From Kappaphycus alvarezii (Eukaryota; Rhodophyta; Florideophyceae; Gigartinales; Solieriaceae), in the NCBI GenBank assembly GCA_002205965.3, contig NADL03000624.1:744001-808000 (forward strand): 64,000 nt of DNA. The letters run 5' to 3'. Shown here in pieces: positions 26,409 through 51,589 of this stretch. How positions within the stretch are numbered: position 1 is the stretch's first letter; every line of letters begins with the position of its first letter. Both the position numbers and the translations under genes were made by a program. Under the pieces are notes generated by a model, which was given only the letters and a program-made list of their open reading frames with translations, did no database searches and was not told the origin of the DNA.

Positions 26409-26411
26409 TTC

Positions 26412-28640: not shown

Positions 28641-28658
28641 AATGGGAGCCCGGATTGC

Positions 28659-30256: not shown

Positions 30257-31501
30257 TCACAATTTGCGGTTCAAGGGAGCCGCGATCTTTGCGAACTTGT
30301 GTACAAACCTTCGATAGACATTGCAAATGCCCAAAAAGGAACGCAATTCCGACTGTTCAGTGGGAGGTCGCGCGTGCTTCAGGGCCTCGACGTTCTTTGT
30401 CGCGACTTCCAATTTCCCTGGACGGATGACATGACCCAAATAGTCAATGGATGCCTCGAAGAAACTGCACTTCTTCAACTTGGGGGATATACCAGCCGCT
30501 TGGATCAGTTTCAAAACCGTTCGGAGATGTCCAAAATGTTCCGTCGGGTTTTTGGAATAGATAATGAGGTCATCGAGATACACCAACGCATATTGCCATT
30601 TGCATCGCGCAAGGATGATATCGAGAGCCATCTGAAAAGTTGCGGGAGCATTTTTCAGTCCAAATGGCATGCGCATGAAACAATATAATCCTGAATGGCA
30701 AATAAAGGACGTTTTGTCCTGATCCGATGGGTTCACTGGGACTTGCCAGTATCTGCAATTTTCATCCAAGGTGGTAACGACTTCTGCATCTCCCAGGGAG
30801 TCAATACACTCATCCACCCTAGGTATAGGGTAAGATTCCACGCAGAAACGGAGCGTACCATCTGGTTTAGGGATGAGGACCACAGGGCTCGCCCATTCCG
30901 AATCGGAGGGCTCGATTACCCCTTCCTTCAACATTCTTGCCACTTCAGTTCGTTCAACCTCTCTAGCTTTCATTCCTGCACGGTAAGGCTGCTGGTGAAC
31001 CGGTTGAGCATCCGGTACGAGATTAATCCTATGGGTTGTGGCCTTGATTTGCCCCAGGTGGCCTGACCACATTTCTTTGAACTCCTCCAACAGGTTGATG
31101 ACCTGCTGCCGCGTACAGGGATAGTCAACACCAATATGAACGGTCTCTCTCCAGTCCGGTTCTTCTCTCCGGTCGGCAACGATCTCTTTCTTGGTTTGTA
31201 TGGCATAGATGGCCTGCGGTGCCTGCAATGCGTGTCCCAATACTTGATTCTTCTTTACCCTGACCGGCCGGTGACTAAAGTTTGAAACCACAATGGGAAA
31301 CGGTACCAAGGGGTGTATGTCTTGGACACCATTCGCCATCAGGGTCAAGTTCTTCAATGCCGTTCGGGGTGCATTCTGAATCAAGCGTAGGCCTGCAGCA
31401 TCCGATTGGACTTGCACAACCATCTTGGAGAAGGCGGGAATCGTAACCGGCTTGGCAACTCTAACCTTTGTTGATGTTGTTGCCTCCGGACGGTCGACCA
31501 C
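30257..31501 (-). pseudogene. Element E reverse transcriptase, with small deletion
   Basis: 414 codons. The N-terminal connector holds 'EEFKEMWSGHLGQIKATTHR'. RT proper runs 'EWASPVVLIPKPDGTLRFCV' then directly 'ESYPIPRVDECIDSLG': about 11 residues present in element D at this place ('DYRKLNALTVKD') are missing. Then come 'VVTTLDENCRYWQVPV' (first Asp), 'MRMPFGLKNAPATFQMALD', 'YALVYLDDLIIYSK' (YLDD) and 'YLGHVIRPGKLEV'. The deletion removes the fingers segment with the conserved Asp-Tyr-Arg, so activity is unlikely. A TAG at 31511 separates RT from protease in the same frame. Confidence 0.88.
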
Positions 31502-31510
31502 CTTACCTCA

Positions 31511-31960
31511 CTAACCAACCGATAGGATTGCCACCGATGGTGAGTCATACAGCATAACCTTTCGCCTTGCTGGTATGATAGCCTTCACGAACCGGTCGAT
31601 GAAGCTCGTCCCCAGGATACAACTTGTCGCCAAGTTGTTAATCACCAGGAATTGCACCTTCGCAACCAGGTTACCCATTCTCAAATGAAGGGGAATTACC
31701 GCGATCGGTTTTATCCGATTGTTGGACACGTCGAGCAACCGGGAGCGGACCTTGTAAGGTAGTGCAAACTTTCTCCAATTGGTAGGTAGGTTTTTAACAT
31801 GGATGATATTGGGTCCAGCTCCGGTATCTAACACGCCCTTGACCGAGAACAACTGTGACGGCGTGAATCCATAGGACAGAGAAACCTTGTAATGGCTCTT
31901 CTTGAGGAAGAATACTGTGTCATCAATATACTCCCCCCTCCTGGATTATGCCAACTTCTG
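31511..31960 (-). pseudogene. Element E aspartic protease
   Basis: The minus strand reads 'FSVKGVLDTGAGPNIIHVK', the D-T-G-A catalytic motif, and later 'LATSCILGTSFIDRFV', the hydrophobic-Gly (I-L-G) motif. It is in the same frame as gag, separated from it by TAG (32018-32020) and TAA (about 31949), and in frame with RT beyond another TAG. The catalytic residues are intact. Confidence 0.8.
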
Positions 31961-32017
31961 GTTCGGCAACCGACGGGTAAGGGGTGCGCGTGATACCAGA
32001 GGAAGTTGGCTAATTTT

Positions 32018-33994
32018 CTACTCCTCCTTTCCGTTTTCCTCCGGGGTCAGAATGTGAACCCGCGAGGTATCCTCTTTCGCTCCCACTGGATGCGGGGGTC
32101 GACCACCCGTGCGTGGCATGTTCTTGTTGTCTCCAGCTGGGGTTTGTCGGTTCCCTGTGGCCTTAGCGAAATTTGCGCGTCGTTCGTCCAGGATCCTGTT
32201 CCTAATGGAAGCTTCAACTATAGGACAATCTTCTGCGAAGTGGTCCGGACTGGCGCAAATCCAACAACGGCGGCCTGACATCACCGACGACGATGCCGCG
32301 GAGGATGGTGGAGACATGAGGAATGCGTTGTCCATCTCCATCTGGACATGCATAACCCATTCAGAACTGCCCCTTGCCGCTTGGGAAATCGATGTATCCG
32401 TTGAGGTCTCGTCTTCTTCCTTCATCATATGGACTTTTCCAAATGGTTTCGCCTTCTTCCCCATTGGATACTCGACCTCCTTGAACGGCTTGGGTTTGTT
32501 CCGTTCGTCATCTTCCTTAGCCATGGCATACTGCTTGATATCCGAAAACGTCAACTGCTTATTCATGGACAGATGATTACGCGTCGAAGCTTGAATGCTT
32601 CGATGCAACCCATCCACGAAAATAGACTTCAATCTCCTTTCGGAAAACACAGAGCCACACCGTCGAGCTTTCGCTCGAATCAGTTCCGCAAAGGTTTCCT
32701 CCGTCATGGTCGGCGCTTGCTTCATGCTGGTCACCTCAGTGTAGGCTCTTGCAATAACCTCATCGGTAGCGTAGGTCCTCAAAGAAAAGTTGACGGCCTC
32801 CTTGTAGGTACCGACTTGATCGTTGCTGTCCTCTTCGTCAATGACCGTACTCCTTCTGGTCTGTAATCTTGACTGGAGATTTTCCTTAGCGGTTCCATCC
32901 ATGAAGTACTGAAGTAACCAGAGGGCCAGTCCTTCCGAAACTCCGTCATGGTCACAAGCGTTTCGGAACTCCGTTAGGAATCCTAAAATCACAATGGGAT
33001 CCCTGCCGGTGAACCTGTCCTCGGGCATTTTTACTGCCAGTCTCTTGGCAATGGATGATATCTTCTTAGCCTTGCTCTCCGAGTATACCATCGAACGGTT
33101 CTCCAACCTATAGGAACGGTAGTCCACCACTCTGGTAAACAAGTCGTTCAACGGTATCACTCGGTCTATGTGCTTCCGTGCACGATTACGACGGCGTTTT
33201 CGGTACTCCACCTCGGAACTTGACCCTTCCTCTTCAGACGAGCTTCCTTCGGACGATGACGACGACGACCTCCGTTTGCGGTTCTTCTTTCTATCCCGTT
33301 TGGACTTCTTATCCTTACGGTTACTGCCTCGCCGACGACCACTCCGGTGGCTGTCATCTCCTGATGACGGGTCGGACGAGTCCCCATCTCCTTCAGGTTC
33401 TCCTTTAACCTCTCGGGAGGGTTTCGTACTTGGTGTTTCTGGCAGAATAATCCCTTGGGGCTCAGGACTTTCCGCACGGGGCTTCTGTGAATCTTTCACT
33501 TCGGATAACTTGGGTAAATTGATGGAATCCAAATGGTCTTTGACAGGAGTCGCAACCATCTGGGATACCAAAGGGCGCACGATCGTCTCAATGGGATTAG
33601 ACTCCGGTGACAACTTCCACTCTTCCAATAGGTTTGATATCGTGCGTTGAACCATTACGGGGAGAGTTGCGGGAAACGTCTCCTCGATGAACTGTGCCAC
33701 CAATGGAGTCACCGACATGGGCACTCTCCATTCCAATTCAGCCTTCAACCATTGGGTTAACCTTGGGGTCAACTCGGTGTTGAGCCAATGTTGGCAGTTG
33801 TCCGATAGCGGCGGCGATGACGCCACTACGGGCTGGGCAGGGGTAGTTCCGACAGGTAAAGGCGTAGACACTAAACCACTTGGGATTGCGGGCGTGCCAA
33901 CTTGGGGTCTTCTAATCATCTTCTCGGGTTCCGCGACAGGCGACACCACAGTAGCACCGGATCCTCGGGTAGACTTGTAACTCTTATCCGACAT
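32018..33994 (-). CDS. Element E gag, intact
   Basis: 658-codon open frame. I choose the ATG at 33994 because the frame is open further upstream only without an ATG and across the primer binding site. A Pro-rich N-terminus is followed by a Ser/Arg/Glu-rich low-complexity tract ('SSDPSSGDDSHRSGRRRGSN', 'KRRSSSSSSEGSSSEEEG'), then a capsid-like part ('MPEDRFTGRDPIVILGFLTEFRNACD', helical) and near the C-terminus the zinc knuckle 'CWICASPDHFAEDC' (C-x2-C-x4-H-x4-C). It packages element RNA. Its capsid part resembles that of element D (D: 'KFDGKDPISIIPFFSTYKKVCD'), so the two elements are related. Confidence 0.85.
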   Translation of the reverse strand: MSDKSYKSTRGSGATVVSPVAEPEKMIRRPQVGTPAIPSGLVSTPLPVGTTPAQPVVASSPPLSDNCQHWLNTELTPRLTQWLKAELEWRVPMSVTPLVAQFIEETFPATLPVMVQRTISNLLEEWKLSPESNPIETIVRPLVSQMVATPVKDHLDSINLPKLSEVKDSQKPRAESPEPQGIILPETPSTKPSREVKGEPEGDGDSSDPSSGDDSHRSGRRRGSNRKDKKSKRDRKKNRKRRSSSSSSEGSSSEEEGSSSEVEYRKRRRNRARKHIDRVIPLNDLFTRVVDYRSYRLENRSMVYSESKAKKISSIAKRLAVKMPEDRFTGRDPIVILGFLTEFRNACDHDGVSEGLALWLLQYFMDGTAKENLQSRLQTRRSTVIDEEDSNDQVGTYKEAVNFSLRTYATDEVIARAYTEVTSMKQAPTMTEETFAELIRAKARRCGSVFSERRLKSIFVDGLHRSIQASTRNHLSMNKQLTFSDIKQYAMAKEDDERNKPKPFKEVEYPMGKKAKPFGKVHMMKEEDETSTDTSISQAARGSSEWVMHVQMEMDNAFLMSPPSSAASSSVMSGRRCWICASPDHFAEDCPIVEASIRNRILDERRANFAKATGNRQTPAGDNKNMPRTGGRPPHPVGAKEDTSRVHILTPEENGKEE

Positions 33995-34115
33995 GAGGCG
34001 AATTTGTGAAAGATCCTTGATACAGGTTGATTTCGTACTAAACTCTTGGTCACTCGATTCCGTCTGGTAATACCGGCTAAACCGACGCAAAGGAAAAGAT
34101 AAAAGAGCTCTTCTA

Positions 34116-34128
34116 GGTCGGGAGACCA
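34116..34128 (-). promoter_or_regulatory. Primer binding site of element E
   Basis: The minus strand reads TGGTCTCCCGACC a few bases inside the 5' LTR, starting TGG as required to pair with a tRNA 3' CCA. Identity with the site of element D extends to 19 bases. Confidence 0.7.
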
Positions 34129-34131
34129 AAA

Positions 34132-34161
34132 TTTGGGAAATAATCCGATAGGTTCGTCAGT
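34132..34161 (-). repeat. Element E 5' LTR, inner 30 bp (cut by element D)
   Basis: Matches 26896-26925 of the 3' LTR with one change next to the end. It ends in TCAGT, the target sequence duplicated by D. Confidence 0.85.
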
Positions 34162-34816
34162 TGTGGGAACCTGGCCGTTACTTTTCGCGCGCGCATAAGC
34201 TACCTACAACTAAGGACAGGCTGTGCTGTCCCGGGCCAGTAGAGCCACGTGTAGTTGCTTTGCAATTACTTTTAATTCCCCAATTATTCCTTTATTTTAG
34301 TAATTACTGTAAGACTAGTCTAGCTGACAGTGCCACACTAGGTGGCGCCGTCCTACACTACTTAGGGTGTCACCACCCTAGGCCGTCCACAGTAAACCAA
34401 AAACAGACCCCACCGAGCCCAAGTTACCTTTTTATTTCCGTGACCGGAGTAGTCCGGAAGTTCAACCTTAACTAGGACTCCTAGTTTGTGACCGGCAAGC
34501 CTAGCGCTGCAAGGATCACTACAGCTAGACCCTTCTAGCGTGCGACCGGAGTAGTCGTGGCTACCCTTTACTTGGCCAGTCCCGGAGTAGGACTGCCTCC
34601 CTATCCTTTACCCACCGTTTTCCCATCCTTCATTCCCCAGAGAAAGATCCTGGAGGACCGTAGGGCATCTTCCTACGCCTATCGAGCGCGACCTACGTCG
34701 CTCTATCCCTCTTCTACCACGTGGCTGTATAGGCCTCCTGGACTGGTCTCCTGCGGAAGCGCCAGCTTCCGAAACTAGCCACCTGGTGCGTGGTCCTCAA
34801 GGGCCATATTACTATA
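34162..34816 (+). repeat. Element D 5' LTR
   Basis: Starts TGTGGGAACCTGG and ends ATTACTATA, where the other copy has ATTACTACA. Confidence 0.9.
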
Positions 34817-34817
34817 G

Positions 34818-34830
34818 TGGTCTCCCGACC
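34818..34830 (+). promoter_or_regulatory. Primer binding site of element D
   Basis: TGGTCTCCCGACC one base after the 5' LTR. The same 19-base string, extended by TAGAAG, occurs in element E on the other strand, so both elements should use the same primer tRNA. Confidence 0.75.
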
Positions 34831-34941
34831 TAGAAGGTTTTTCCTTTCTCCCCTCAACGCGAGCGAAACAGAAAGGCGATCCTTTCTGAAGACCCGACAG
34901 CGCGAGCGCGCTGCGATTCGAGCAGATGCCTCATCCCTCAG

Positions 34942-36404
34942 ATGCTTCGATCCGAGGCCGTGCCTCGGATCGCCCACAACGAGGAGTTCCTCGTATCAAC
35001 TATTCGAACAACGGAGAAGTTTCACGTTCTTCGTGAGTTCGTAATGGTCCGGGAATTCCTGACCCAAGACCAAGAGATACTGCCGCTCAAGGATTGGAAA
35101 CCGCACCAGCAGTTCCTCATTCACAAGCCGTTCCGGCACCGCCGGAACGTCCAACTGGGAATCCCCAGTGCCTACAGTGGGTGAAAATGGCGCCCCCACT
35201 CCCATTGAGGAAATCCCTCAATCCATTCTATCTCCCGAGCTTCGCTTGGTCGAGTTATACCTCGAGCAGGTGCTCGAGGACCGCTTGGTTGCGTTCCAGG
35301 AAATCCTGGAAGAACGCTTGGAAAGAAGGACGATTCCTTCCACACCATGCTCCGCCAGGAGATGGTCGCCCTCTGCAAACAGGAGCGTACAGTATCAGAT
35401 GCTACACAAGTTGGCCGGCTCGTCGGAGCCGCCATGGCGGATTCGCCTATCGAGCGTCAGCTCGATGAACTCAAACAACAGCTTGAGGAAGAGAGACGCA
35501 GGGTTTCGGATCTGCATGGCGAACTGCGTGGGCTTAGACTCCGCAGGGATCGCTCTCAGGCATCTAGCCGGAGCCCTGTTCCGAAGGGAACAAGTGACAG
35601 ACGGCGCTACAGCCCTGTACGTGATCAACATCCGGGATATCCCGGACTCCACTGCCAACAGTGTGGCATGAGTGGACGCGCGCGGAATGTCCGTAGTGAC
35701 TCCGCCGAGTGAGTCAATCGCTGGTACCACGATCGCCTGGTTAAACAAGCCCACAAGGCAGAAGCCGAGGAGTCCTCGGACCGGATGGAAGGTGGGGAGA
35801 TAGAATTCATTCCCCGCACAAGGTCTGGGTTGGTCCCCGACATGAAGGCCTCAGAGAGATCCAACCGGCCGAGCCAAGTTTCGCTCGTGTCGTTTCATAC
35901 CGCAGGTACCGCCTGCGCAACACAGACCAGAACATCTCTAGTACAGTGCTCGCCGACACCGGTGACCACTACAAGCGGCTCAAGCATTTGCTTGGCGCCC
36001 GAAAATTTGATGGGAAAGATCCCATCTCCATCATCCCCTTCTTTTCTACATACAAGAAGGTGTGCGATAACAATCGCGTAAGTGAGGGAGCCGCCCTCAT
36101 CCTGTTACCGCATTTTCTCTCGGGCGAGGCCCGAAAGCAGTTCGAATCCAACTTCGAGTTGGGAGAAGAAGGTAGTGGGGGATTCACCTCCTACCCAGGA
36201 GCCGTGCAGTTCTTGCTGCGCATGTATGTCACCGATCGTACGATCGAGGCGGTCGTCGAGAACATCGACAGTCTCCGGCAGAAGCCGGAGGAAACGAAGC
36301 TAGCATTTGCTAGTCGTCCACGCAAAGCGGCGAGGTCCTGTGGCGCGGTGTACACCGAGCAGGACCTCATCAAGCGCTTCGTAAGGGGATCCTTACCTGA
36401 CTAG
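34942..36404 (+). pseudogene. Element D gag, frameshifted
   Basis: Read through at least three frames. 35168 on: 'TPIEEIPQSILSPELRLVELYLEQVLEDRL'. 35430 on: 'MADSPIERQLDELKQQLEEE', a coiled coil, then a basic Ser/Arg stretch. 35946-36404: 'GARKFDGKDPISIIPFFSTYKKVCDNN' and 'SEGAALILLPHFLSGEARKQF', matching the capsid part of element E gag. A stop follows at 36404, and the frame continues to about 36900 with Pro/Arg-rich text. I see no intact zinc knuckle; 'CQQCGMSG' near 35655 is only suggestive. Confidence 0.65.
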
Positions 36405-36572
36405 AAGCCGCTCCTTCAAGTTGAGCGGCAGACGTCGCAACAATCTCGGGACAACCCGAGAGCTTTCCTCGACTATGTCGAGAAGACAACTGCCATCGGG
36501 GATGCTCACAGAGCCCTCGTAGAGAGGCAGCACAAGCTGCCATGGTCATCCCGAAGAGCTATAGCTCTGTCG

Positions 36573-37500
36573 GTGAACTCAATCAATGAGGGACCTCCCT
36601 CACAAGAGCGTCGTCGCAAGACCGCTCACCTCCAGGGCGATACAGTGTTCGCCATGCATTCGGACGAGGAGGTTACCTCCTCCCAAGTGTTCGACTCGGC
36701 CACCGAGATCGATTCGCACCGGACACGCCCGCGTCCGGAAAGGCCTGACTCTGCGCTTGCCGTGATTCCTGCTCGTAATCCGCGACTACCGTCATGGGCA
36801 TCGCCAACCAAGAACCAGAAGCCTGGTTGGGTAACATCTGAGGATCAACCCTTACAAGTTGGGACATCGTCGTCCCAACTGTCCAGACCAGGGACGCCCT
36901 GATTCCGACCCTCACTTCGCGAGGGTCGTCCGCGACAACTACAACAAGTTGTCAGGCAGCAGAAGTATTTCCGTCGCGCCGTAGGAAGAGCGCCGCGCTT
37001 CCTTGCCGGGGACTGAAAAGGCCCGTCCTATGTTCAAGACACCCCACCGGCACCGCCGGTGAGGTCGGAATCACCATCGAGGGAATCCTCGATATTGACA
37101 AGGAAGGATGACCTTCATGTCTCCTTCTCGGAATCTGAGACTCCGACGCAGTCGGAAAAATAGAAGGGGTCCCGCCACAAGCGAAGCCCCCGGCGGAACC
37201 CCCTCCCTCAGGGGAACAGTCGGTCAATCCCGCTCTAAACCAACACAGGTAGGGATCCTACCTCGGCCTTACGGCCTCCCTCGCCACATCACTGTGGAGG
37301 AGTATCGAGAAGATCCTATCTGCTATCTATCGCGCTACAACTACAAGGTGGTTGCAGAAATTGGGGACGCCCTCAATACGCTCAACGCGTACAACCCGTG
37401 TTCGACACCGGTGCAGGACCAAATTTGGTCTCAAGAGATTGTTGCTAACGGCAATCGAAATCGAGAGATATTTAACCTATCTAGCGCTTCAAACACCGTC
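36573..37500 (+). other. Element D, gag tail to protease, no clear domain
   Basis: Short open frames rich in Pro, Arg and Ser. Hairpins continue without a gap. Nothing else can be named with support. Confidence 0.4.
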
Positions 37501-37860
37501 TGAAGATGATGGGAATCGTAGTACTGTCGCTACGAGTCGGGGACCTGCTCTGCAGGTAACCCTTTGTAGTCGTCGAGGAACTCGGCGCTGATGCCATACT
37601 TGGCACCACCTTCATCGACCGGCATGTGGAACTTATCCACATCCGTCGTCGAGAAGTGGTCCTCCGTAGCGGCGCTACTTTGCGGATACATAAGAGACCC
37701 GCATTGTTTCCGTTCCGTCGCCGTTCGACGGAACCGAAACCATTCTTCGAGGAAGTGCCTCGAAATAAAATCGTGCGGACTACCCGCCGATTCCTCCTGC
37801 CTCCGCAATCGGAGACAGTGGTGGAAGTTCAGCTTCCTTAACAGGAGATGTCCTGTTAGA
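37380..37860 (+). pseudogene. Element D protease region
   Basis: Around 37505-37680 one frame reads 'LGIVVLSLRVGDLLC' then 'PFVVVEELGADAILGTTFID', aligning with 'IPLHLRMGNLVAKVQFLVIN' and 'CILGTSFID' of the element E protease. The catalytic D-T/S-G box upstream (near 37390) is not convincingly readable, with only 'PVQDQIW' at the expected place. Later 'FRRRSTEPKPFFEEVPR' is the linker to RT. Several frame breaks. Confidence 0.6.
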
Positions 37861-38151
37861 GACCTATCCAAGGTTGTATCGCAAGACTCAGGTCAGCCTG
37901 AGTAATGGAATCGCTTCGGTCAAGCCGAAGGAATCGTTCGCCGTGAAGGTCGCGAACTTTTCGACCGAAACGCGCGTTCTGGCAAAAGGCCAGATTGTAG
38001 GGTACGCATCCGCGATGCCCGACACTGTACTCGAGGTCACCCTCGACGATAAGACACCCGGCCGTGAAAACAATTTAGCGCCGCAAAGCTTCGGCACCGC
38101 CGAAGAGAAACTGGGGGTGTATGACGTTGACTTGTCCCATCCACCCCCGCA

Positions 38152-39068
38152 GTGCAAGCCAAGACACGAGCAATGCTCGTGAAGCATGAGACTATGTGGT
38201 CAGGTCACTTAGGAAAAATCCGGGCTACCGAACACCGGATCGACCTCGTACCTGGGTCATCCCAGTACGGTCACACCCTTACCGTGCAGGCCCAAGGCCC
38301 GCGAGACGGAAGAGAAAGAAGTCAAACGAATGCTTGATGCGAAGGTGATTGAGCCCGCTCAATCTGAATTCGCCAGCCCAGTAGTGCTGGTGCCCAAACC
38401 GGATGGGAGCAGACGGTTCTGCATAGACTACAGGAAGCTCAACGCCCTCACGGTCAAGGACAGCTATCCGTTGCCCCGCATGGATGAATGCCTAGACTCG
38501 CTAGGTGAGGCGACGTATTTACCGCCTTAGACTGTAACTGCGGTTACTGGCAAATACCTATCCGCGAAGCGGACAAGGACAAAACAGCATTCTTCTGTCA
38601 CGAAGGCTGTTTCCGGTTCTGCCGGATGCCTTTCGGGCTGTGCAATGCGCCAGCCACGTTCCAACGCACAGTAGATATCCTACTGGCGCGATAAAGTGGA
38701 AGACTTGTTTGGTATACTTGGATGATATCATCATTTTCTCCAAGTCCATCGAGGAACACCTCGATCATGTCGATGAAGTACTCACGGTACTTCGGAATTC
38801 AGGGGTATCCCTGAAGTTGAAGAAATGCACGTGGTTCACAACCACTGTCAACTACCTCGGCCATGTGATACGGCCGGATAAACTCGAGGTTGCCTCGAAG
38901 AACATCGAAGCGGTGAAGGGCTTCACCCCACCGCGCACGCAAACGCAACGAAGGAGCTTCCTCGGTCTCTGCAACGTATATCGGAGATTCGTCCCGAACT
39001 TTTCCCGAGTGGCGGCGCCTCTCAACAAGCTATTGAAAAGGGAAATCCTTCCAACTTCCGGAGCTTGA
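38152..39068 (+). pseudogene. Element D reverse transcriptase, frameshifted
   Basis: The connector 'HETMWSGHLGKIRATEHRIDLVPG' closely matches element E. 38330-38527: 'FASPVVLVPKPDGSRRFCID' and 'YRKLNALTVKDSYPLPRMDE', complete where E is deleted. Then another frame: 'LDCNCGYWQIPI' (first Asp) and 'RMPFGLCNAPATFQRTVD'. Then 38699 on: 'CLVYLDDIIIFSKS' (YLDD) and 'YLGHVIRPDKLEVASKN'. All catalytic residues are present but the pieces lie in different frames. The YLDD codons sit inside a 12-bp palindrome. Confidence 0.85.
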
Positions 39069-39072
39069 CTCC

Positions 39073-39530
39073 GTGCAACTGGAAGCATCTGCTTCCTTGA
39101 AACAGGCCCTCATCAAGTCGCCTGTGTTGAGGTTACCTCAACCTGGATTATCATACTCGGTCGATACCGACGCGTGTGATGAACAAGTAGGATGTGCCCT
39201 ACTTCAAACCCATGAGGATGGCATTCGCCATCCCATCGGCTATTGGAGCCGATCACTCGGCCCCGCCGAGAGGAACTACACGACGAGCGAAAAGGAATGC
39301 CTCGCTGTTGTATGGGCAGTGCAACTGCTCCGCCCATACCTCGAACAGGAAGATTTTCAACTGTTCACCGATCATCAGGCATTACGCTGGTTGATGAAGT
39401 CCACCGACACCACCGGTCGGTTGGCCCTTTGGAGGCTACGCCTCCTCAATTCGATTTCACCCTTGGTTATAGAAAAGGGGTGAAGAACCAAATAGCAGAT
39501 GCTATGTCAAGGTTACACACCGACGGCGAG
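39073..39530 (+). pseudogene. Element D RNase H
   Basis: 'LSYSVDTDACDEQVGCALLQ' (first Asp), 'RNYTTSEKECLAVVWAVQLL' (Glu) and 'FQLFTDHQALRWLMKS' (second Asp) lie in one frame up to 39480. After a frameshift 'QFDFTLGYRKGVKNQIADAM' supplies the last Asp. All four acidic residues are visible. Confidence 0.83.
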
Positions 39531-39654
39531 ACCGACTTCGCCGGAAATTGGGAAGTACCTTGCTTCCTCGTGGAATCGACGGTGACCCGTCAGAGTCACC
39601 CGCCTATCCGACAGGAGCAGGCTTGAGCCAGCTCCTCGCTCGGCAAGGATATCC

Positions 39655-40797
39655 TTGCCCTCACCCCGAACCTTTCAAAGTGAGGTTCTTCGCTGCAGGA
39701 CACCTGCAGATAATCCAGTCGTCGACATGGATTTGGACGACATCGACTGTGAAGACAGTCGCGACGAGGGCTTGACCTCGTTCGATCCAATCTCGGCAAC
39801 CGAGCCGGCACGTGAGCTACAAACGCTTACGACGGAGGAAATCCTCCGTGAACAAGAGAAGGACTCCTTCTGTCAAGAGGTAAAGGACGCCTTCACAGAC
39901 GATGAACGTAAAGTCAGGGACTTTACGATTGACCAGCGTGGCCTGGTCGTTCGACTTTCGAAAGTCGATGACGCGGTGCAAATCTACGTGCCTGCATCGT
40001 TGCGTCCGCGAGTGCTGATGATATCGCACTACGCAAAAATGTCCGGGCATCCCGGAGGGTCATGCAAGTACATGACTCTACGTCGTACATTCTATTGGCC
40101 CAGCATGGCACTGGACGTATACAACACCGTTCGCCAGTGCTCAAGCTGCGCGAAGGAGCGTGTCGCTCTTAGGAAGCACGCAAACTTCCTCAAACTATTC
40201 CCGGCCTCGAGTCCTCTCGAGTTCGTGGGGATCGATATCCTCGGTCCCTTCCAAGGACATCCTTGGGCTACCGCTATCTGCTAGTTATCACAGATAGGTT
40301 TTTGAAGCTAGTTCGAACTGTCGCGCTACGCAGAGTAGCTGCTGTGGCGATCACCAAAGCCTTCTGCGAAGAATGGGTGTTTACATACGGGAGTCCCGTA
40401 TAACTTCTGTCTGACAACGGAGGGCAGTTTGTCAGCAAGTTCTTTCATATGCTGTGTCCTAGGCACGCGTAATCTATTTACGACAGCCTACCATCCGCAG
40501 ACCAATGGTCAGACGGAGAGATTGAACAAGACAATCCTGTCAGCGTTGCGTCACTTTTGCAGGGAACACTGGAGGGACTGGGATCAGTACCGCGCCACTG
40601 TAACCTACGGTTACAACAATACAGTGCACTGGGCAACCGGTCACACTCCGTTTGAGCTAGAGCTCAGCCGTCCACCAACCCCGCTTGCCCTGGCACAAGT
40701 GAGGACGATTAACCTCGGGGATGTTCACCCAAGTCAAGTGAAGCGTCGCTTCCATGACCGCTTGAAGGCCATGTTGGCAACTTCAAGGAAAGACTGA
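39655..40797 (+). pseudogene. Element D integrase
   Basis: 39655-40284 carries the zinc domain ('MISHYAKMSGHPGGSCKYMT' ... 'RQCSSCAKERVALRKH') and 'EFVGIDILGPFQG' (first Asp). A frame change follows, then 'LLSDNGGQFVSKFFHM' (second Asp, after a stop), another change near 40440, then 'YHPQTNGQTERLNKT' with Glu and 'WDQYRATVTYGYNNTVHWAT'. The integrase C-terminal part continues near 40800 as 'YKRGYDSRLRVSTETISVGD'. Confidence 0.83.
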
Positions 40798-41463
40798 GCA
40801 AAGCTCAGGACGCATACAAGCGAGGCTATGATAGCCGCTTGAGAGTAAGCACTGAGACTATCTCAGTGGGTGACTCGGTCCTCGTGAGCCGCGAGCGAAC
40901 GAAGAGTGACGAGCCAAACGCACCGACGAATGAACCGTCGACAACTTACTAGAGCACAAGCTCCGCATGGAAGTGCTGGGACCGTACCCAGTTGTGAGGA
41001 TATCCTCACACACAGTCACGATCCTGTGAGACGTACTCGAGAATACCGTGTCGCGAGACCGTATCGCGAAGGCACCCTCTCGGCCGAGTACAGGGGTATC
41101 GGGAACTCTCGATACTGAAGAAAATCAGGAAAACCCTGATTCAGGACCTACATCCGCGTCCCCTCCTCAGGAAGGGACGGAAGACTCTCAGTAATCGCCT
41201 GAACCAATAACGATGGAGGGCCAAACCCCCACCGTCGATCAAGAATAAGAAGCCCCGCTTCTTCGATTAGGACAGAGGGACACGCCCTCGAACGCTGCTG
41301 AAGCATCACGCGAAGCGCCGCTTCGTCGATCATCCCGCCTTGTTGCGCAAGGACAGGAAAAACGAGGATGCCTCGGATGACTGAGAATAATCCCGATCGG
41401 CAACGCCGACTACGGAAAGCAATGAGGACAACCTCAGTCAAGAACCAGGTGACTTAGTCCCTA

Positions 41464-41613
41464 CGCTTCGATCGGATTATAGATCACGATCTTGATAGCG
41501 GGCTGTACCGCGTCCGCTGGACGAACTATTCGCCTAGTGATGATACCTGGGAACATAGTTCGTCCATCCCTTTCAACGCCGTGGCACAGTACCACCGGCG
41601 TAAAAGACTGAGG
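41464..41613 (+). pseudogene. Element D chromodomain
   Basis: One frame reads 'RFDRIIDHDLDSGLYRVRWT' followed by 'NYSPSDDTWEHSSSIP'. The aromatic residues, the V-R-W strand and the D-D-T-W-E end match chromovirus chromodomains, including that of element E. It is out of frame with the upstream integrase tail. Confidence 0.8.
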
Positions 41614-43604
41614 CCCCCTCAGTATTCCCTTCGTCCGCCTGACGAAAGACGATATTGGAACAAGGGTAGCCTTGTGAATTGGCTAAGCCAAATGGACGTC
41701 AAGGATACCTCGACTACACAGTACCACCCAGGTGTTCCTGGGTAGGTGAACTAAGCCTACCGAGAAGGTAGACGGGGAAGAGTATCTGTTCCCCAAACGG
41801 AATCCCGTTTCGACCACGCCGGGGGAGAACAACCTCCCCACCGCTATTACAATTGGAATTCCCAAATCCTGTTGAGAGCCGAACTTCGGCCTTTGAAACG
41901 ACAGACCGGGACAACACGATCTTGGGAAATTAGGCGACTCGCGCCTACCACTCGAGATAGCTCTAGTGATATGCTCAACTTAAGGTGAGCTGGAAATCTC
42001 CCCCCCCAACGCAATCCTTGGCAAAAATACTGAAGCGGTACGACCGCCCACTCTCTTTGGGAATCCCAATACATTCGTACGAATCGGCGCGCAGCCCGGC
42101 TCGTACTTGGAGGATAAAACGCCTCCAGAAGAAAGACGAGCCTCCTTATGTCCGAACAAGGCTCCACGCGCCGTGGAGATACACACGAGAACCCTCGTGA
42201 CAATTTGGAATGGGATCCCCCATTCTCTGTCAAGGCAAAGCTCATCCTTGCCCTCTTGAACCAGGTCCCCTGGTCTAAACTTGCCAATCAACTGAGACTG
42301 TCTTGCCCTTTATCAGGACTCCTGATTTCTTCTAGGTTGGGGAAATCCCCCCCCAACTTCTGTTCAACCAGCTTGGCTGGCCAACACCGTGTTGCTCCGC
42401 CCCACGTTGGATGGGAAAACCCATCCCGCCAACCACTACACAGTGACTACTATTGTCACTGCATACCCAGGTAACCTGGACTACGATATAGACAATAGAC
42501 GAGGCCACCCTCGCCGCGACGGCTACCGTACGCCGGCAACCAAACTACTGAGCAATCCCAGTACATCAACAACCGTCTCACGAACTCTTCGTGCAGGCGC
42601 AGACCAACATCTCTTGGTACTGTAACAGTCCCTACGGAATGTTCCGAGGGAACCAATGGGACCAACAAGGATAACCTTGTTACAACTCTGTTGGGAATGA
42701 CTCAACCGAGATGCTACATTAACTATTCAGGTTAACCTGGATCTACAAGTTCTACTCTAGTTATCCAACTATGAGGGAAGAGGGAAGGCTACTTCTCACA
42801 AGACAAATCTGGGACACCAGGTCCTTTATTCAACTACGTGTGGGCTATCTCCATACCAACCACTGCGAAGCCTGACTACACGTCGGCTACGCCTGGCCCT
42901 CTTGGCCCTCATTACTGCCAGACTGGGGAGGATTCTCCCCCCCTCCTCAACCAGGTCGTATCACCGACCACCGCTGGGAGAACAACCTCCCTCCCCTTTA
43001 CCAGGATATCTTGGAGCAAGTCCAGGAGACCAACAATGGTCAATCGTCCTGGACGACCGTTGCGTGCAAGCGCTTCGAGAAAGGTCGGGCCCACCGGTTG
43101 AATGCCACGGTACCAAGGATCCTCTCGGCTTGTTTGTACTCCTCACGGGAACACCCCCGTTGAGCTACGGTCGGGAAGCTGCCCGACCCAATGGACTGTC
43201 CGAACGCCCCCGCCACCCCTGTCGGGCGGCCTTCTTGCGGCAACGACCGCAAATTACCCGTCAAGCGAGGACCCCTATCGTCACGGGGATCGAACCGCTT
43301 GGACTACGTGGGGTGAGCCCCCCTGGAGGGCTACTCGGAGCCCAGATCGCTGGGTTAAACTCGACCCAGTCTCCACCACCATAGACTGGTTTACTCATGT
43401 CCTGAGTTTCCGTAAGGACCCGGTTCATCGCAGGAACCTGTGACCAGTGTATCTGGTCAACAAAGTCCAGCAGGGCGCTGGCATCGGCGCGGTCCGCCGC
43501 TATCGATTGAGGAAGCAACTATTCCAGGCCAATGTTCCTCGCACCGTCTACAGTTGCGGGCGGAAGGTAGTATAGCCTACCTCGACGCGCTTCATAGATC
43601 AACT

Positions 43605-43973
43605 CTATGACGCAATTCTGTATCCATTGGATACAATGACATTCCACGAGGAATCCTCGTCATTTGCATACGGACCTGCAATGTCCAATCCGCGGTACAC
43701 AATGAACCAGGGAGTCTCTGGTAAGAAGCCGTACGGAACTTCGTACTTGTTCCACCAGACAGGGACTGGCACGTACTTGTCACCCAGCGCCGCTGGGTCA
43801 ATAATATACGCTTCGCGGTTATGATAGCTCACAAATACTCGGTGAGCATGGCGCATCTTCCTTTCGAATTTGCGATCCGAAGGACAAGGGTAGTAGTCCC
43901 GGTCAGCGCGAATGCTGACAGCACGCGGCAACGCCGCGCGCCCCTCAAGGAGCCTACGCTCCTTCCCGAACAA
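43605..43973 (-). pseudogene. Antisense ORF in element D tail, 122 codons
   Basis: A minus-strand frame with balanced, protein-like composition: 'HRVFVSYHNREAYIIDPAAL', 'VWWNKYEVPYGFLPETPWF', 'YRGLDIAGPYANDEDSSWN'. Further minus-strand pieces continue in other frames at 43518-43261 and 43264-43040. Together with 44544-44017 they look like one decayed antisense reading frame of perhaps 500 codons. No domain is recognised. The dense palindromes make the two strands similar in composition, so chance frames are more likely here than usual. Confidence 0.35.
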
Positions 43974-44016
43974 CAGAGCGGCGGACTGATAACGTCGCAG
44001 TCCATGTCTTCTTTAG

Positions 44017-44544
44017 TTAACGAGGAATCCTTGTTGCATACGGTGCTTCGGTTGCGCAACGCGCAAACACAATGTCGAGGCCTTCCTCGACCGCAAAACG
44101 GAGGTCAAAGTACTGACCCCGACGACGAGCACAGGACACCAGCCTGTCTAAACGACGCTGACTAACAGCGTTGCTGTCAAAACGGATTAACCAGTCTTTG
44201 CTGGTTGTCATCGCCCGAGGAATCCCCGGTGCGGCATGGGCAAGATAACCTGCCCTTTCGGCGGAACCTGCCTCAAAGAAGCCCTGACATGAAGCTGAAA
44301 TGGAGGAAGGAGGAAACGGGTTGTTAGACTGGGGACGGGGCGGCGGGAACAAGAGGACGCGCCGGATGAAAACGCTGTGCGGAACACTCGGGCTGTCCGG
44401 GTTTGTGTTCTGGGGAGAGTGATGGAACTCTTCCAAACCACCAGGAGTCCTGGTTATAAAGCGGTTCACCGAAAAGTGATACTGTATTTTTGGAGGGATA
44501 TGCCCTTTTCCTGGGGAGTGCCTAGATACGACCGTGAATGACAA
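44017..44544 (-). pseudogene. Antisense ORF in element D tail, 175 codons, FDSN motif
   Basis: It starts at an ATG about 620 bp before the 3' LTR and reads away from it, against gag-pol. The N-terminal half is Pro/Ser-rich. The C-terminal half reads 'DWLIRFDSNAVSQRRLDRLV' then 'SCARRRGQYFDLRFAVEEGL'. The order R-x-FDSN ... AR ... G-x-x-FDL recurs in the antisense ORF of element B (19555-19992), which sits in the same relative place in an unrelated element. Function unknown. Confidence 0.4.
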
Positions 44545-45148
44545 TTACTTTTACCAGTCAATTCACACTGGGGGGGGCGGAAAAACCCGACCAGCAAGGC
44601 GCCCCTCTTATTGATCGGGCCACCCGATCTGGGCTTTTGGAAGTCAACGGCCGCCCGAAAACCGGGCGCGCCCCACAACGGATTCTTACCAGGATACCTG
44701 GTATGTCTTGGATGACCCCGCACGAACACGGGTTCGAGGAATATGGAACAGCGGAACGACTGCTCCCCAGAGGATCACCCGACGACGGTATAACGTCTAT
44801 TAGCAGAAGCTACTATTTGGATTCGCAGTGAAGCGTTGCTAACCAGGTCCAGCCAGGATCACCTGGCTCAACGCAAAGTTTTAAGAGGATGGGGTTACCC
44901 AACCCCCATACCTCGTCAATATTTTCAAGGAACCCCTTGACCGTTTATAGACCCTACACGAAACAACGTGTAACTAGCATTGCTAGTTCGGCAACCGAAG
45001 TACAGGCTTGCCACGCAATTGGGAAATCCCAACTGCGTTATGACCTTACGATATCCTAATTTGCTACGACTAATACGCGCGGTACCACACCCCGACCAGG
45101 CTCCCTGGTCTGTCTTTCTCGCGTTACTCGTACTACGTACTCGATGCT

Positions 45149-45161
45149 GGGTGAGGGGGCA
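45149..45161 (+). promoter_or_regulatory. Polypurine tract of element D
   Basis: GGGTGAGGGGGCA directly precedes the 3' LTR, as needed to prime plus-strand DNA synthesis. Confidence 0.6.
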
Positions 45162-45818
45162 TGTGGGAACCTGGCCGTTATTTTTCGCGCGCGCATAAGC
45201 TACCTACAACTAAGGACAGGCTGTGCTGTCCCGGGCCAGTAGAGCCACGTGTAGTTGCTTTGCAATTACTTTTAATTCCCCAATTATTCCTTTATTTTAG
45301 TAATTACTGTAAGACTAGTCTAGCTGACAGTGCCACACTAGGTGGCGCCGTCCTACACTACTTAGGGTGTCACCACCCTAGGCCGTCCACAGTAAACCAA
45401 AAAACAGACCCCACCGAGCCCAAGTTACCTTTTTATTTCCGTGACCGGAGTAGTCCGGAAGTTCAACCTTAACTAGGACTCCTAGTTTGTGACCGGCAAG
45501 CCTAGCGCTGCAAGGATCACTACAGCTAGACCCTTCTAGCGTGCGGCCGGAGTAGTCGTGGCTACCCTTTACTTGGCCAGTCCCGGAGTAGGACTGCCTC
45601 CCCTATCCTTTACCCACCGTTTTCCCATCCTTCATTCCCCAGAGAAAGATCCTGGAGGACCGTAGGGCATCTTCCTACGCCTATCGAGCGCGACCTACGT
45701 CGCTCTATCCCTCTTCTACCACGTGGCTGTATAGGCCTCCTAGACTGGTCTCCCGCGGAAGCGCCAGCTTCCGAAACTAACCACCTGGTGCGTGGTCCTC
45801 AAGGGCCATATTACTACA
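45162..45818 (+). repeat. Element D 3' LTR
   Basis: Pair of 34162-34816, ending CTACA. Followed by the TCAGT target copy. Confidence 0.9.
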
Positions 45819-46413
45819 TCAGTTGCGGAGAGAGTTGGTAGAGCAGGGGTAAACCTATAGGCTACAGTAAATACCAATTGGGAGAAAGAGTTTGCAAGGA
45901 AGCGTAGGATAGTACGGCGTTCAATGGGCGGACGGTTAACCTACTGGGGTGAAGGAGTCCAGGGAGTTGCCGGCGGCTTGGAGACGGATTTCTGGCTTAT
46001 CAGGTGCTTACCTCTCTACTCGAACCATCAAGAATTGACAAACCCATATAGGGAAAAGATCTAAAACGCCGGCGATGGGACTGTAAGGGAGCAATGGCCC
46101 AAAGGAAAGGGTATCTAACAAGGAATCCAGCGCCTGTAGGAAAGGTGAGCCACGAGCTCACCTTCCCAAACCCTCTGAAGGCGCGTACCTTGCGGGATCT
46201 ACGACATTTCCCTGAGTGCTGCACTGTATCCAACGGGAAATTACAGTAATCTCCATCGGGATCCTAAAATCTCCATCCATGACGGCCAGCAATGCACTTC
46301 AGACAATCCACTGGAACATTACACCAAACCACTCGGCTTACATTAATCCAACAGGGAGCGGACGCAAATTTGGGAGCGAGCGCGCAAACCATTTGGGACG
46401 CCATTATACCACA
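45819..46413 (-). repeat. Element E 5' LTR, outer part (cut by element D)
   Basis: Continues the LTR from 34161 and matches 26921-27517. It ends CCACA, followed by CTCCT. Confidence 0.88.
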
Positions 46414-46418
46414 CTCCT

Positions 46419-46803
46419 TACAACTCTTGCGACGCGAACACACCAAATCAAAAGAGTTTACCCAAGCGTAAGCATGATGGAACGAATGGAACCGGACAAG
46501 GATTTCAGCGTCTGGGGAGACACGCCGATCATCTCATCCAATTCCACCATTCCATTACTCCCGGTCATTTATCTCGGTCCTTGCAACTCCCCCGCCTTTT
46601 CGCTGGAAAATCCTCTCCGCTTCGTGTGCCTCCCCAGGCCGGCCATTGCTGGCAGCGTACGTCCACTCAAGACAAGTAAGGTTGGCACCAAACGGAAGCT
46701 CTCACACTACACCCCTTTGGGGTACCATCCCCGGGAGAAGCGTATCGCGCTAATAGTCGCTGTACAGCAGCATCCGAGGATTCGAGTGATCAAGCATTTT
46801 TAA
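46419..46803 (+). pseudogene. 3' part of the unknown ORF split by element E
   Basis: The frame that is open at 26768-26895 continues here after the duplicated CTCCT and stays open for 128 codons to TAA at 46801-46803. In its present state the frame is instead entered from the E LTR (ATG near 46280). It is basic with scattered Pro ('GYHPREKRIALIVAVQQHPR'). No domain is recognised. That the frame is open on both sides with the junction in phase is the only evidence that it was coding. Confidence 0.35.
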
Positions 46804-48180
46804 CCCTGCCATTACCAGTTCTGTCTCGAGCAAACGTCCAACACAAAGGTTCAAATCAGTCCCAACTACTGGAGCATGTAAGCTGCATAAGTTATCCCTG
46901 ATTGCTGTAATGCGTACTTATTTAGTTATCCCTGTTGCTGTTAGCTATTTGCTTTGATAAAGTGTTTGTGTTTCTCTTTTGTTTTAATTCAACGCAGCAC
47001 TTGGGAGGATTCGTTCATTCGATTTGTATGCACCCTGTAGGATATTCCGGGCCACAACCGACCATACCTTTCAAATATTAAATCACCCCACATTTTCCCC
47101 CTTTGTACTTCAATAATTTCGTTGTGATTTTTCTTCAAATGACTCAGGACGAAAGAACACTTTTGATGTCTTTGTCACTACTGTACAGTATGTACCGTAA
47201 ATAATACGGCCTTGCGGTATTTTCTTCTGTAGTGTAGCCAGTTTGAAAGGTAAATGGCGACACGATTTCATGTCTGCCTGGCTCGCCGCCGCTATGATCT
47301 GGCGTTTGTCAGATCGTGAGGTGGTACAGAGATCGGTGCTTCGTCAAAGTTTGCCGAAAGATCCCTCCAATCGCGCCAGTCATTTTGGACCAGAGATACC
47401 GACGGCGTCGAGTGGGCGTGTGTACATGCAACCTTGATGCCACCATTTCAGAAAGATACGCAGAGAGCATGGAGAAAGATCACCTTGGATCTCACTATTC
47501 ATAATCCAACTTCGTCCAAAAAGCGTGGTGAATAACAGTAAAACGTCACAGTTGGAGAAGAAAGAATGCAAGCTTAGTCATGGAAAATTTCGAGTAAATT
47601 CCATTTTTTTAAGTGATGGCGTAGTAGGGGAAGTTGCATCACCATCGGAGATACCCTAAGAATGCTTGAGTTGCAAATAATCAAACCGCACTGTATCTTT
47701 ACTTCCAGTGTCGTTCCTCTGTCTTTGGGGCTATCTTGGTTTGGGTAAGCGGCAACTTTTCAGAGCAAGTAAGTTGGCGCCGATTCCCGCGCTCCTGCTG
47801 ATGTTACAGCCCGACATCAGCTCTTTCATCCCACGCTCCATGCTTTTTCCTGTTTTGGGAGTATTTACGAAGCAGACGTTCAGTTTTCCTGATGACAATT
47901 GGGTTCGTCTGTGTTGCTAAGACGCTCCAATTATTGGCTACTTCGTAACCATGAATGAACATGCCTTAGCAACCAACAACTTCCCCACCACCGCAACCCA
48001 CTGAACCTCCGCATCCTCCAAAGGCCCCAGCTCTTCTGCTCCGGCAAAGTCGTCATCGACGTCATCGCCATCCCCAGAATTGAAGTCGGACCAACCCAGC
48101 GAGCTAACCGGCACCAACTAGCGCTCAGTTCCATATAGTCACTGAAAAGACAGATCGGTGGCAACCTCGGTGCTCGTTAT
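46804..48180. other. Intergenic stretch
   Basis: Short frames only (for example 47708-47920 on +). 47031-47104 is the inverted counterpart of 60971-61183. A TACTGTACAGTATG motif lies near 47180. Confidence 0.45.
47031..47104 (+). repeat. Inverted repeat arm (empty-site copy)
   Basis: The reverse complement matches 60971-61026 joined to 61157-61183 with about one mismatch. It lacks the 119-bp LINE piece and the second copy of its 11-bp flank. Confidence 0.8.
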
Positions 48181-48184
48181 AAAC

Positions 48185-48550
48185 TTACCCGCGCGCCCAA
48201 GTGACGTATGCCCATAGACGCCTTCCGGTTGAATTCGATTGGGGCGGCCTCCGGAGAAGATAGGGACTGCTCGTTACCAGGTGATGACGAGCGTGAGGGT
48301 TTCTGTATACACGAAGGATTGGCCTGCGGCATGCCTGCATTGGGAGCCGAAAGAGCCGAGTCAAAAACAAAATATCCAAGTTGGTCGCCAGCTCCGAGCT
48401 CGTAATAACCTCACCTGCGCGCCCGAGTGACTTTCTGCACATAGACGCCTTCGGGGTTGAATTTGATTGGGGCGGCTTCCGGAGAAGATAGGGGCTGCTT
48501 GTCGAGATGATGACGGGCGTGAGGGTTTCGGTAGACCGGGGTTGGAGACC
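48185..48550. repeat. Imperfect tandem duplication
   Basis: About 48185-48330 and 48405-48550 share long near-identical runs (such as GGGGCGGC-TCCGGAGAAGATAGGG and GATGACG-GCGTGAGGGTTTC). The unit is about 220 bp. The right copy falls in the 3' end of the hypothetical gene at 48361-49104. Confidence 0.7.
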
Positions 48551-49104
48551 TGAGGCCTATTGGTTTGGGGGACGGTGGGAGCCAGCTCTGGGTCCGAGCA
48601 CATTCCATCATAAATTCTGAATAAGAGGTCATGTAGGGACCGGTTCAACCGACGAGAGGCAGTGTTAGACGCTCGAATATGGGGTTGTAGCATGGATAAA
48701 ACCGAGGCCACTACCTGCCCGAGATTATATTCCCGCCGCACAGAAATGTTGTGCACGTGAAAGAACCTTTGCAGGTCCGACACGAGATACTTAACATGTA
48801 TGTGAAAGTCTGACAAGTCGGGACTGGAGGTACGAAGTTGCTCTTCTGACTCCGTTACCAGAGCGAAATAAACATATCTCAGATAGAAGCACGAGTGCTC
48901 AGGCGATTTGATGTTGTGCGGTACCTCGGACCACGCCTCGAGCGCTTCCGCGAAAGGTTGCGCTGAGTCTTCAAAGTCGTTGTACCAGTCATCTTCGCCT
49001 TCCCCATGACGATGACGACGGTCATCATCAGCTCCAAAGTCTGACCTTGGAAATTGGGGTTGGATAGGGATGCGTGGAGACGATAAGTCGCTGCAAAGGC
49101 TCAA
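48361..49104 (-). CDS. Hypothetical protein, minus strand
   Basis: The frame is open from a TGA at about 49115 to a stop at 48361, about 247 codons, without an ATG near the start. A first exon upstream is therefore likely if it is real (a TTTGCAG acceptor-like string lies near 49090 on the minus strand). An acidic N-terminus ('DDDRRHRHGEGEDDWYNDFE') is followed by a helical middle ('FAEALEAWSEVPHNIKSPEH', 'LSDFHIHVKYLVSDLQRFFH') and a Pro/Ser/Arg-rich end created or extended by the tandem duplication. I do not recognise it. The middle part has normal amino-acid balance, which favours a real or recently real gene. Confidence 0.4.
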   Translation of the reverse strand: MSLCSDLSSPRIPIQPQFPRSDFGADDDRRHRHGEGEDDWYNDFEDSAQPFAEALEAWSEVPHNIKSPEHSCFYLRYVYFALVTESEEQLRTSSPDLSDFHIHVKYLVSDLQRFFHVHNISVRREYNLGQVVASVLSMLQPHIRASNTASRRLNRSLHDLLFRIYDGMCSDPELAPTVPQTNRPQVSNPGLPKPSRPSSSRQAAPIFSGSRPNQIQPRRRLCAESHSGAQVRLLRARSWRPTWIFCF

Positions 49105-49842
49105 CCGATGAATACATCAGCTAAGGGGACGGAAGAAAATTCCCCAAAGATATCTTGGCAAACCGAAACATCATCGGGTTGAAACACTCCCGACGTAAGC
49201 GGTGTGCTTACTGTACAGAAAGAACAGGTGACGACGACGGTTGTTCCGAGTGAGCGATCTTGATTAGTACCAGCAGAACAACGAGGGCTGGGACCCCTCG
49301 CCTGCTGTAACAAAGACAGCATTGGTTGGGTGCGGTAGGGTACACTAAGGGTTGCACAGCCTGGTCGGGGAGGACAGCCTTCCTTACAAGCCTCTCCCAG
49401 TTTGACGCAACGTGCTTGGAGGGCGAGGGATGACAATCTCACTGAAACGGCAAGAACCAAAATCGACGCAACGAAGTCTCCGAAGCGGGGATAGGCGATC
49501 TGTATGACCCGCTAGGACTTGAGGAGAGAAGAGGATCTTCGGTGCCCATGGCCAGCGTGGCCCGGACGTCAAGCGATGCGGAACAATGATTGGAAAAGAC
49601 CAGCGTGGATGTTGGGTAAGATGGCCCAGTTGTGTGGAAACGGTTTTTCAGTACTTGAATCCAGATTTAACGTTTTCAGCTTAACAAAACAATTTTGCAG
49701 CCACCTGTACACGCCTCATTGTCGTAAGTTTATCAAAATACAAATATTTCGCAACAATTCTCATTTGGCTCATTATGGGCACCTCAGCAGACACCAAATC
49801 AAACGCTCGAGCCATCGCACACCAAACGACTTGTTGCTGCAA

Positions 49843-51585: not shown

Positions 51586-51589
51586 TAAA

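Follow-up and report, generated by a model that had tools for sequence, protein, structure and literature searches.

What would cover an entire retrotransposon, coding sequence included, with short hairpins? The question is raised by element D, a Ty3/gypsy-type long terminal repeat (LTR) retrotransposon that occupies positions 34162–45818 of a 64-kb stretch of the Kappaphycus alvarezii genome (contig NADL03000624.1, positions 744,001–808,000; hereafter, the window). The window is a nest of retroelements, and copies of D were searched for in the same genome (336 Mb in 884 contigs). Our answer, held with moderate confidence, is that a Ty3/gypsy chromodomain clade appears to have evolved, and to retain, a dense array of short stem-loops across the whole element, largely by way of synonymous and non-coding positions, and that the array would be read by a protein.

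Hairpin excess in element D

Perfect inverted repeats with loops of 0–8 nt were counted in D and in 20 dinucleotide shuffles. With arms of at least 6 bp, D contains 172, while its shuffles contain 20.9 (standard deviation 4.8), an approximately eightfold excess; the counts are 86 versus 4.5 with arms of at least 7 bp, and 26 versus 1.1 with arms of at least 8 bp. Three stretches of equal length elsewhere in the window give 24 versus 23.0 (22504–34161), 33 versus 20.5 (45819–57476; 8 versus 1.3 with arms of at least 8 bp) and 38 versus 25.6 (1–11657), or 1.0–1.6 times their shuffles. The excess in D is confined mainly to loops of 0–8 nt, with a maximum at 3–4. Density (stem at least 6, loop 3–8) is even along the element—10.7 per kb in the LTR, 14.3 in leader plus gag, 12.9 in pol and 12.6 in the 3' tail—and spacing is random, with gaps of mean 59.6 and standard deviation 60.6 and no regular period.

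These counts bear on an earlier note, made from the letters of the window alone, that had described D as a chain of hairpins every 20–40 bases, where chance predicts about one per 600, and had found the pattern absent from the related element E and from flanking DNA. The excess is real and the chance estimate correct. Dense tiling over the whole length also stands; the interval does not, being 68 nt for arms of at least 6 bp and 39 nt for arms of at least 5. Absence from E holds (2 hairpins versus 1.8 in shuffles of a 1400-nt reverse transcriptase (RT) piece), while absence from the flanks holds for one of the three stretches, the other two lying mildly above chance. When folded in 77 segments of 150 nt, D has a mean z against shuffled controls of −2.56 on the plus strand and −2.07 on the minus strand, with 64% of plus-strand segments below −2, while E (−0.06 and −0.28) and two other regions lie between −0.06 and −0.48 on both strands. 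By z, folding of D favours the plus strand (52/77 segments), and by raw energy the minus strand (53/73); this strand comparison tells little because stems are identical on both strands.

The features of D, and of the element into which it is inserted, are as follows.

34162–45818, plus strand: element D, tiled with short hairpins and bounded by LTRs and a target duplication
34157–34161: left copy of the target site duplication TCAGT, read at the ends of D
45819–45823: right copy of the target site duplication TCAGT, read at the ends of D
34162–34816, plus strand: 5' LTR, with 7 hairpins (stem at least 6, loop 3–8); 98.9% identical to the 3' LTR
45162–45818, plus strand: 3' LTR; 98.9% identical to the 5' LTR
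34818–34827: candidate primer binding site, TGG-starting TGGTCTCCCG, just inside the 5' LTR
35880–36389, plus strand: gag core (Retrotrans_gag) with hairpins within; PF03732 on 35745–36401, E=3e-5, 24.6 bits (cut-off 24.1); 36.7% identical to the gag of E
36853–36882, plus strand: remnant of a gag zinc knuckle, second half only; no CCHC in the three plus-strand frames of D
38321–39035, plus strand: RT, in pieces in different frames; PF00078 on 38538–39065, E=8.3e-14
39058–39447, plus strand: RNase H, with 8 hairpins (stem at least 6) within conserved protein; PF17917 on 39037–39480, E=1.5e-33
39670–40245, plus strand: integrase zinc-binding domain and start of the core, with 12 hairpins (stem at least 6); PF17921 on 39586–40281, E=8.2e-14
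41458–41610, plus strand: chromodomain at the integrase C-terminus; PF00385 on 41458–41742, E=6.5e-8
41651–45161, plus strand: 3.5 kb 3' tail with no recognised coding and 43 hairpins (stem at least 6), loops A-rich and G-poor
26921–34161, minus strand: element E, related to D and without hairpin excess

The LTRs of D are of the TG..CA end type with a short target duplication (the final dinucleotide is TA in the 5' LTR and CA in the 3' LTR), and the element lies inserted at the edge of an LTR of E, where 5 bases are duplicated. Profile matches give the order gag, RT, RNase H, integrase zinc domain, chromodomain; assignment to the chromoviruses is by this order and the chromodomain match rather than by an RT tree. 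The coding pieces of D, which are homologous to E, do not share one frame, and the 14 pieces used contain 9 in-frame stops. These breaks may be due to age or assembly error, and two homopolymer-length differences between the LTRs point the same way; some relatives of D have long open frames around RT (up to 1091 amino acids at 96% identity). Homologs of the RT, among the 120 listed of 576, include Chondrus crispus and Agarophyton chilense. The single open reading frame (ORF) scanned in the tail (43605–44012, minus strand) has no Pfam match, the 64-kb window has no tRNA or Rfam match, and the viral contigs scanned with the RNase H piece contain no relative.

The hairpins lie over the protein code. 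The 14 coding pieces (3792 nt) carry 48 hairpins, compared with 5.8 after synonymous codon permutation (standard deviation 2.3, maximum 13 in 200 trials). Residues whose codons lie in hairpins agree with homologs to the same degree as equally conserved residues of the spacers (differences of +0.018 in the 5' arm, −0.001 in the loop and −0.001 in the 3' arm, each within error); the 7/5 hairpin at 39235–39253 (plus strand), for instance, encodes IGYWSRS, the commonest homolog residues. The earlier proposal that the palindromes were written mostly into synonymous positions is thus supported. In the least conserved class, hairpins cover 40 of 87 codons; in the most conserved, they cover 13 of 74. 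The match to homologs, together with this thinning over conserved codons, indicates that the protein code was in force while the hairpins arose. No clear preference for a codon register was seen among the D hairpins (12/19/17). A protein search with gag found one relative, P0150, 72% identical to D gag; the two proteins differ at 6/20 codons in hairpin arms and 33/114 in spacers, about an equal rate.

Distribution, design and rates of change among related elements

A DNA search with the D tail gave 21 matches: D itself, its family (mostly 92–97% identical) and seven divergent loci, which fall into F2-tail (L044, L045, L047, L048 and L050; 89–96% identical to each other) and F3 (L049 and L046); here and below, families A, F2, F3, G and J are named by pairwise identity rather than from a tree. 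All 14 D-family loci (13 elements, D included) are hairpin-dense, at 8.8–13.6 per kb, as are six of the seven divergent tail relatives, at 9.0–10.9 per kb; the seventh, L046, is only partly homologous and carries 1.9 per kb. For RT, 150 places were scored of 7670 candidates, 28 of them, by our count, at 75% identity or above, and 12 were chosen across the identity range. Nine of the 12 pieces are dense (8.6–13.6 per kb; D's own piece, 17.1) and match D at 80–83% as DNA over 813–1258 nt. They belong to A (L051), F3 (L052), F2-pol (L053, L056, L057, L058 and L061), G (L054) and J (L055). The remaining three (L059, L060 and L062) and E carry 1.4–2.1 hairpins per kb, shuffles give 1.4–2.4 per 1400 nt, and 20 further RT loci carry 1.7–3.3 per kb. 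Protein identity alone does not sort the trait: the dense L061 is 60% identical to D as protein and 82% as DNA.

High density was found in about 27 elements of six families, and among the sampled elements it is a trait of one clade, not of D alone. The sample comprises pieces of 1.3–4.1 kb from few families of one genome, with some decayed loci and possible assembly error; F2-tail and F2-pol were drawn from different places, and that they are one family is an assumption. That the trait arose because the whole clade lost its Gag zinc knuckle was tested and rejected: the related L063 has a full CCHC and F3 has one with the His changed. In this zinc knuckle comparison the gag pieces of A and of a hairpin-free sister are split between frames.

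The families share not only density but also a design, consisting of (i) stems of up to approximately 7 bp, (ii) loops mostly of 3–5 nt, and (iii) an apex of the form (A/G)G(G/C)..(G/C)C(T/C). In D, the odds that a stem extends by a further pair are.58,.56 and.47 at stems of 4 to 6, and.15 at a stem of 7; in five other families they are.54,.50 and.47, and then.24. The three pairs adjacent to the loop are biased in D, with AGC, AGG, GGG and GGC arms at 2.5–4.4 times expectation (AGC 4.4 and AGG 4.2 times, versus.82 for GCT,.75 for CCC and 0 for TTT), and pairs farther from the loop are less so. The same limit and apex were found in 144 hairpins from eight loci of the five other families (L045, L049, L051, L052, L054, L055, L057 and L064). 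On the plus strand, loops in the D tail are rich in A (.39) and poor in G (.094; p 8e-7), a shift that is weaker in D gag and pol (p.16 and.053). At the seventh pair, G is favoured on the 5' side in the pool of related families (.54 of 67) and not in D (16/67).

Within the D family, 11 copies were compared over 4.1 kb. Most variants are private (905/990), and these strike stems, loops and spacers alike, at per-site rates of.210,.266 and.217; private changes to G-U and to A-C number 40 and 35. Of the 163 stem variants, not one has a compensating partner. Hairpins in resident copies thus decay neutrally and are not repaired, and a host process that perfects palindromes, as suggested in the earlier note, is not supported for resident DNA, given the similar private rates in stems and spacers and the lack of compensation.

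Between families, stems change more slowly than their surroundings. In the tail, per-site differences from D to F2-tail are.207 in stems versus.308 in spacers (p.0024; private changes,.232 versus.246), in the reverse direction.185 versus.31 (p.0006; private,.129 versus.15), and from F2-tail to F3.093 versus.145 (p.04). In pol, 13/93 third codon positions in stems have changed between D and F2-pol, compared with 109/273 outside them (p 2e-6). The constraint has the same direction in all eight directed comparisons among D, A, F2-pol and F3 (p from 0.034 to 2e-6; the comparisons share sequences and are not independent), with 7–18% of third positions differing in stems versus 22–42% elsewhere, or 2.1–3.4 times fewer. 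None of 1360 shifted hairpin masks was as conserved as the real one. First and second codon positions outside stems differ at 61/552 in the pol piece, which indicates that the alignment there is sound. Hairpins are retained exactly in 248/1072 cross-family cells, versus 179/3634 with random masks, and 27 more are retained with changes. Examples from the tail, all on the plus strand, include both retention and turnover.

43169–43188: 7/6 hairpin, also present in the related tail family, where A-T replaces a T-A pair
43782–43798: hairpin that the related family retains, T-A having replaced a C-G pair
44189–44206: 6/6 hairpin, likewise retained by the related family, its outer end bearing paired changes
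43902–43938: two D-family hairpins that are missing in the related family

Slower change in stems than at other sites points to selection on the nucleic acid of the replicating lineage, on top of selection on the protein code; to judge by these rates, the hairpins are very probably kept by natural selection.

What the hairpins may do

If hairpins are selected, is it as RNA structure? The tests of pairing are mixed. Double changes in pol restore pairing in 181/379 cells, compared with 91–127 of 372–397 in slid controls (cells share history and are not independent), and in the eight pol comparisons 15 of the 26 double changes re-pair. The tail contains clear pair swaps (among the hairpins listed above), and its inner pairs change less than its outer pairs in the comparisons of D with F2-tail (.29 versus.53, and.33 versus.42).

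Several results weigh against the reading that we favour. Covariation in the tail lies within the range of the slid controls (3/9 and 4/9 double changes re-pair), inner pairs change less than outer pairs in only three of the eight pol comparisons, and the tail constraint between F2-tail and F3 (p.04 overall) falls to.050 versus.087 (p.20) where L046 agrees. In the other families, loops are weakly A-rich (A.304, versus.255 overall). Single changes show no preference for G-U over A-C: 39 versus 36 in the eight comparisons, 433 versus 431 pooled across families, 7 versus 14 and 2 versus 6 in the tail between D and F2, and, in D alone, 5 versus 11 by a strict test and 18 versus 46 by a loose one. 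The sole lean towards G-U is from F2-tail to F3 (7 versus 3, or 3 versus 2 where L046 agrees); within F2-tail the counts are 8 versus 18. This lack weakens the case for selection on RNA structure, which should favour G-U. A strand bias arising from wobble pairs was also considered and is not supported: D alone has 36 A-C and 17 G-T pairs, versus 6.3 and 3.8 in shuffles, roughly as composition would give.

Two further ideas of the earlier note come out divided. One was selection for structured genomic RNA: the slower change of stems supports selection on the genome of the element, and the case for RNA structure specifically is weakened by the missing G-U preference. The compensating changes that it proposed as a check are absent within the D family; between families they exceed the slid controls in pol and remain within their range in the tail. 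A factor that needs Watson-Crick stems, or that reads the apex, would fit these data; free RNA folding alone fits less well.

Other processes could produce such arrays. Composition, codon use, repeats or assembly might be suspected of creating an artefact, given the frame breaks and the two LTR homopolymer differences, which hint at assembly noise or age; dinucleotide shuffles and synonymous permutation rule out chance, composition and codon use, and the recurrence of high density in six families leaves the artefact with a negligible probability. A more serious candidate, albeit still an unlikely one, is templated mutation: snap-back (quasipalindrome) events during reverse transcription would write the hairpins, and purifying selection would only remove those that harm the protein. 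This would account for perfect Watson-Crick arms with no G-U preference, for loops of 3–4 with a GC-rich apex as priming seed, for the random spacing and for a density that is the same whether or not the sequence is coding, and for several lineage-specific hairpins; 4-nt loops are enriched among template-switch-like changes (PMC8794818). For five D hairpins that the related family lacks or has in altered form, a pairwise comparison of the two sequences shows differences in each arm. New hairpins should, however, raise divergence in stems, yet stems differ 1.5–3.7 times less than other sites between families, and third positions 2.1–3.4 times less; single changes outnumber re-paired double changes by 138 to 15; and density in pol is not below that in the tail, though hairpins thin over the most conserved residues. 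Snap-back switching, also named in the earlier note, is possible as an origin, in line with the loops, the Watson-Crick perfection and the 15/26 re-paired changes, but does not predict low stem divergence.

Selection may instead act on something other than binding of a protein to RNA. Hairpins could protect the RNA against silencing by small RNAs or prevent complementary strands from pairing up, as has been proposed for the genome-scale ordered RNA structure (GORS) of persistent RNA viruses. Coverage of the whole element, even density and the strongly negative folding z (−2.56 per 150-nt segment, versus −0.06 in E) suit this idea, which we nevertheless judge improbable: it needs neither a fixed apex sequence nor a 7-bp limit, and it would tolerate G-U. 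We give a similarly low probability to a selected feature of duplex DNA or of single-stranded complementary DNA (cDNA), such as palindromic protein sites or cDNA hairpins. A strand-neutral constraint would agree with the Watson-Crick perfection of the arms and with G-U and A-C being tolerated equally, and hairpins occur in the LTRs too; variable loop length and arms misfit a fixed duplex site, and the tail loops are strand-asymmetric.

We return to the reading of a protein-read, selected stem-loop array. Selection would act during replication of the element, most likely on its single-stranded genomic RNA and possibly on single-stranded cDNA; that the hairpins act as RNA, rather than as cDNA or duplex, is somewhat probable. 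The stem-loops would form a large set of similar binding sites, recognised in part by the sequence of the apex and in part by pairing. Their likeliest reader would be the element's own Gag, in condensation and packaging of the approximately 11-kb RNA, with a host protein the next candidate. A role in Gag binding or packaging is put forward tentatively, as is its fuller form: about 140 similar-sized stem-loops over gag-pol and non-coding sequence could constitute a code, read by Gag to select and fold the genome: a distributed packaging system beneath the protein code, one without precedent among LTR retrotransposons in the literature searched. The raw hairpins may have come from template switching.

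Known systems resemble D in part. D shares with Ty3/gypsy chromoviruses its LTRs, target duplication, gag, RT, RNase H, integrase zinc domain and chromodomain, in the same order; it differs in the selected micro-hairpin array over the whole element and the 3.5 kb tail, and its relative E is without the array. As in the GORS of some RNA viruses, folding energy in D is below that of shuffles along the element, but D is an LTR retrotransposon with discrete, perfect, size-limited hairpins, a common apex and no wobble signal. Single-stranded RNA phages such as MS2 have dispersed packaging signals, many similar short stem-loops with a common apical motif. The stem-loops of D are likewise short, of similar size and alike at the apex; there is no homology, and binding by Gag is a prediction for D. 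Ty3 genomic RNA also contains short palindromes, one supporting dimerisation; in contrast to D, six are reported, near the 5' end, along with a well-folded core that makes up almost 20% of the RNA, and the passages seen describe no continuous array (PMC11381356). Template-switch hairpins share perfect stems and 4-nt loops with D, but those described lie in RNA genes, whereas D has approximately 13 per kb, conserved, over 11.7 kb (PMC8794818). The Conserved Hairpin Site of fungal GalEa Copia elements is another conserved retrotransposon hairpin, but a single site after the 5' LTR rather than an array (PMC5445492). No hairpin-tiled LTR retrotransposon was found in the titles and abstracts of the open literature searched, a body that mostly leaves out subscription journals.

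With the array, whole retrotransposon genomes in several families would carry a second layer of information under selection, one strong enough to lower third-position change within stems by half to 70%. It makes dispersed structural signals of LTR retrotransposons, in packaging, protection or reverse transcription, open to test, and the dense families beside relatives without the trait in the same genome form a natural comparison.

Other elements of the window

Three further repeat pairs were seen in the window. Repeats at 22191–22463 and 26412–26683 (98% identical) bracket ORFs at 23505–24410 and 25383–26408; we take 22191–26683 to be a DIRS-like element, the former ORF being presumably RT-like and the latter recombinase-like. 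The region 7115–13718, of low GC, has a repeat pair (7115–7519 and 13315–13718, 97%) around minus-strand ORFs that to us look copia-like. A third pair (13932–14316 and 20353–20737, 96%) surrounds plus-strand ORFs, presumably copia-like as well, and its repeats carry GTACAGT/ACTGTAC hairpins. Short palindromic TACTGTA..TACAGTA motifs occur outside D at 20754, 51659 and 55731.

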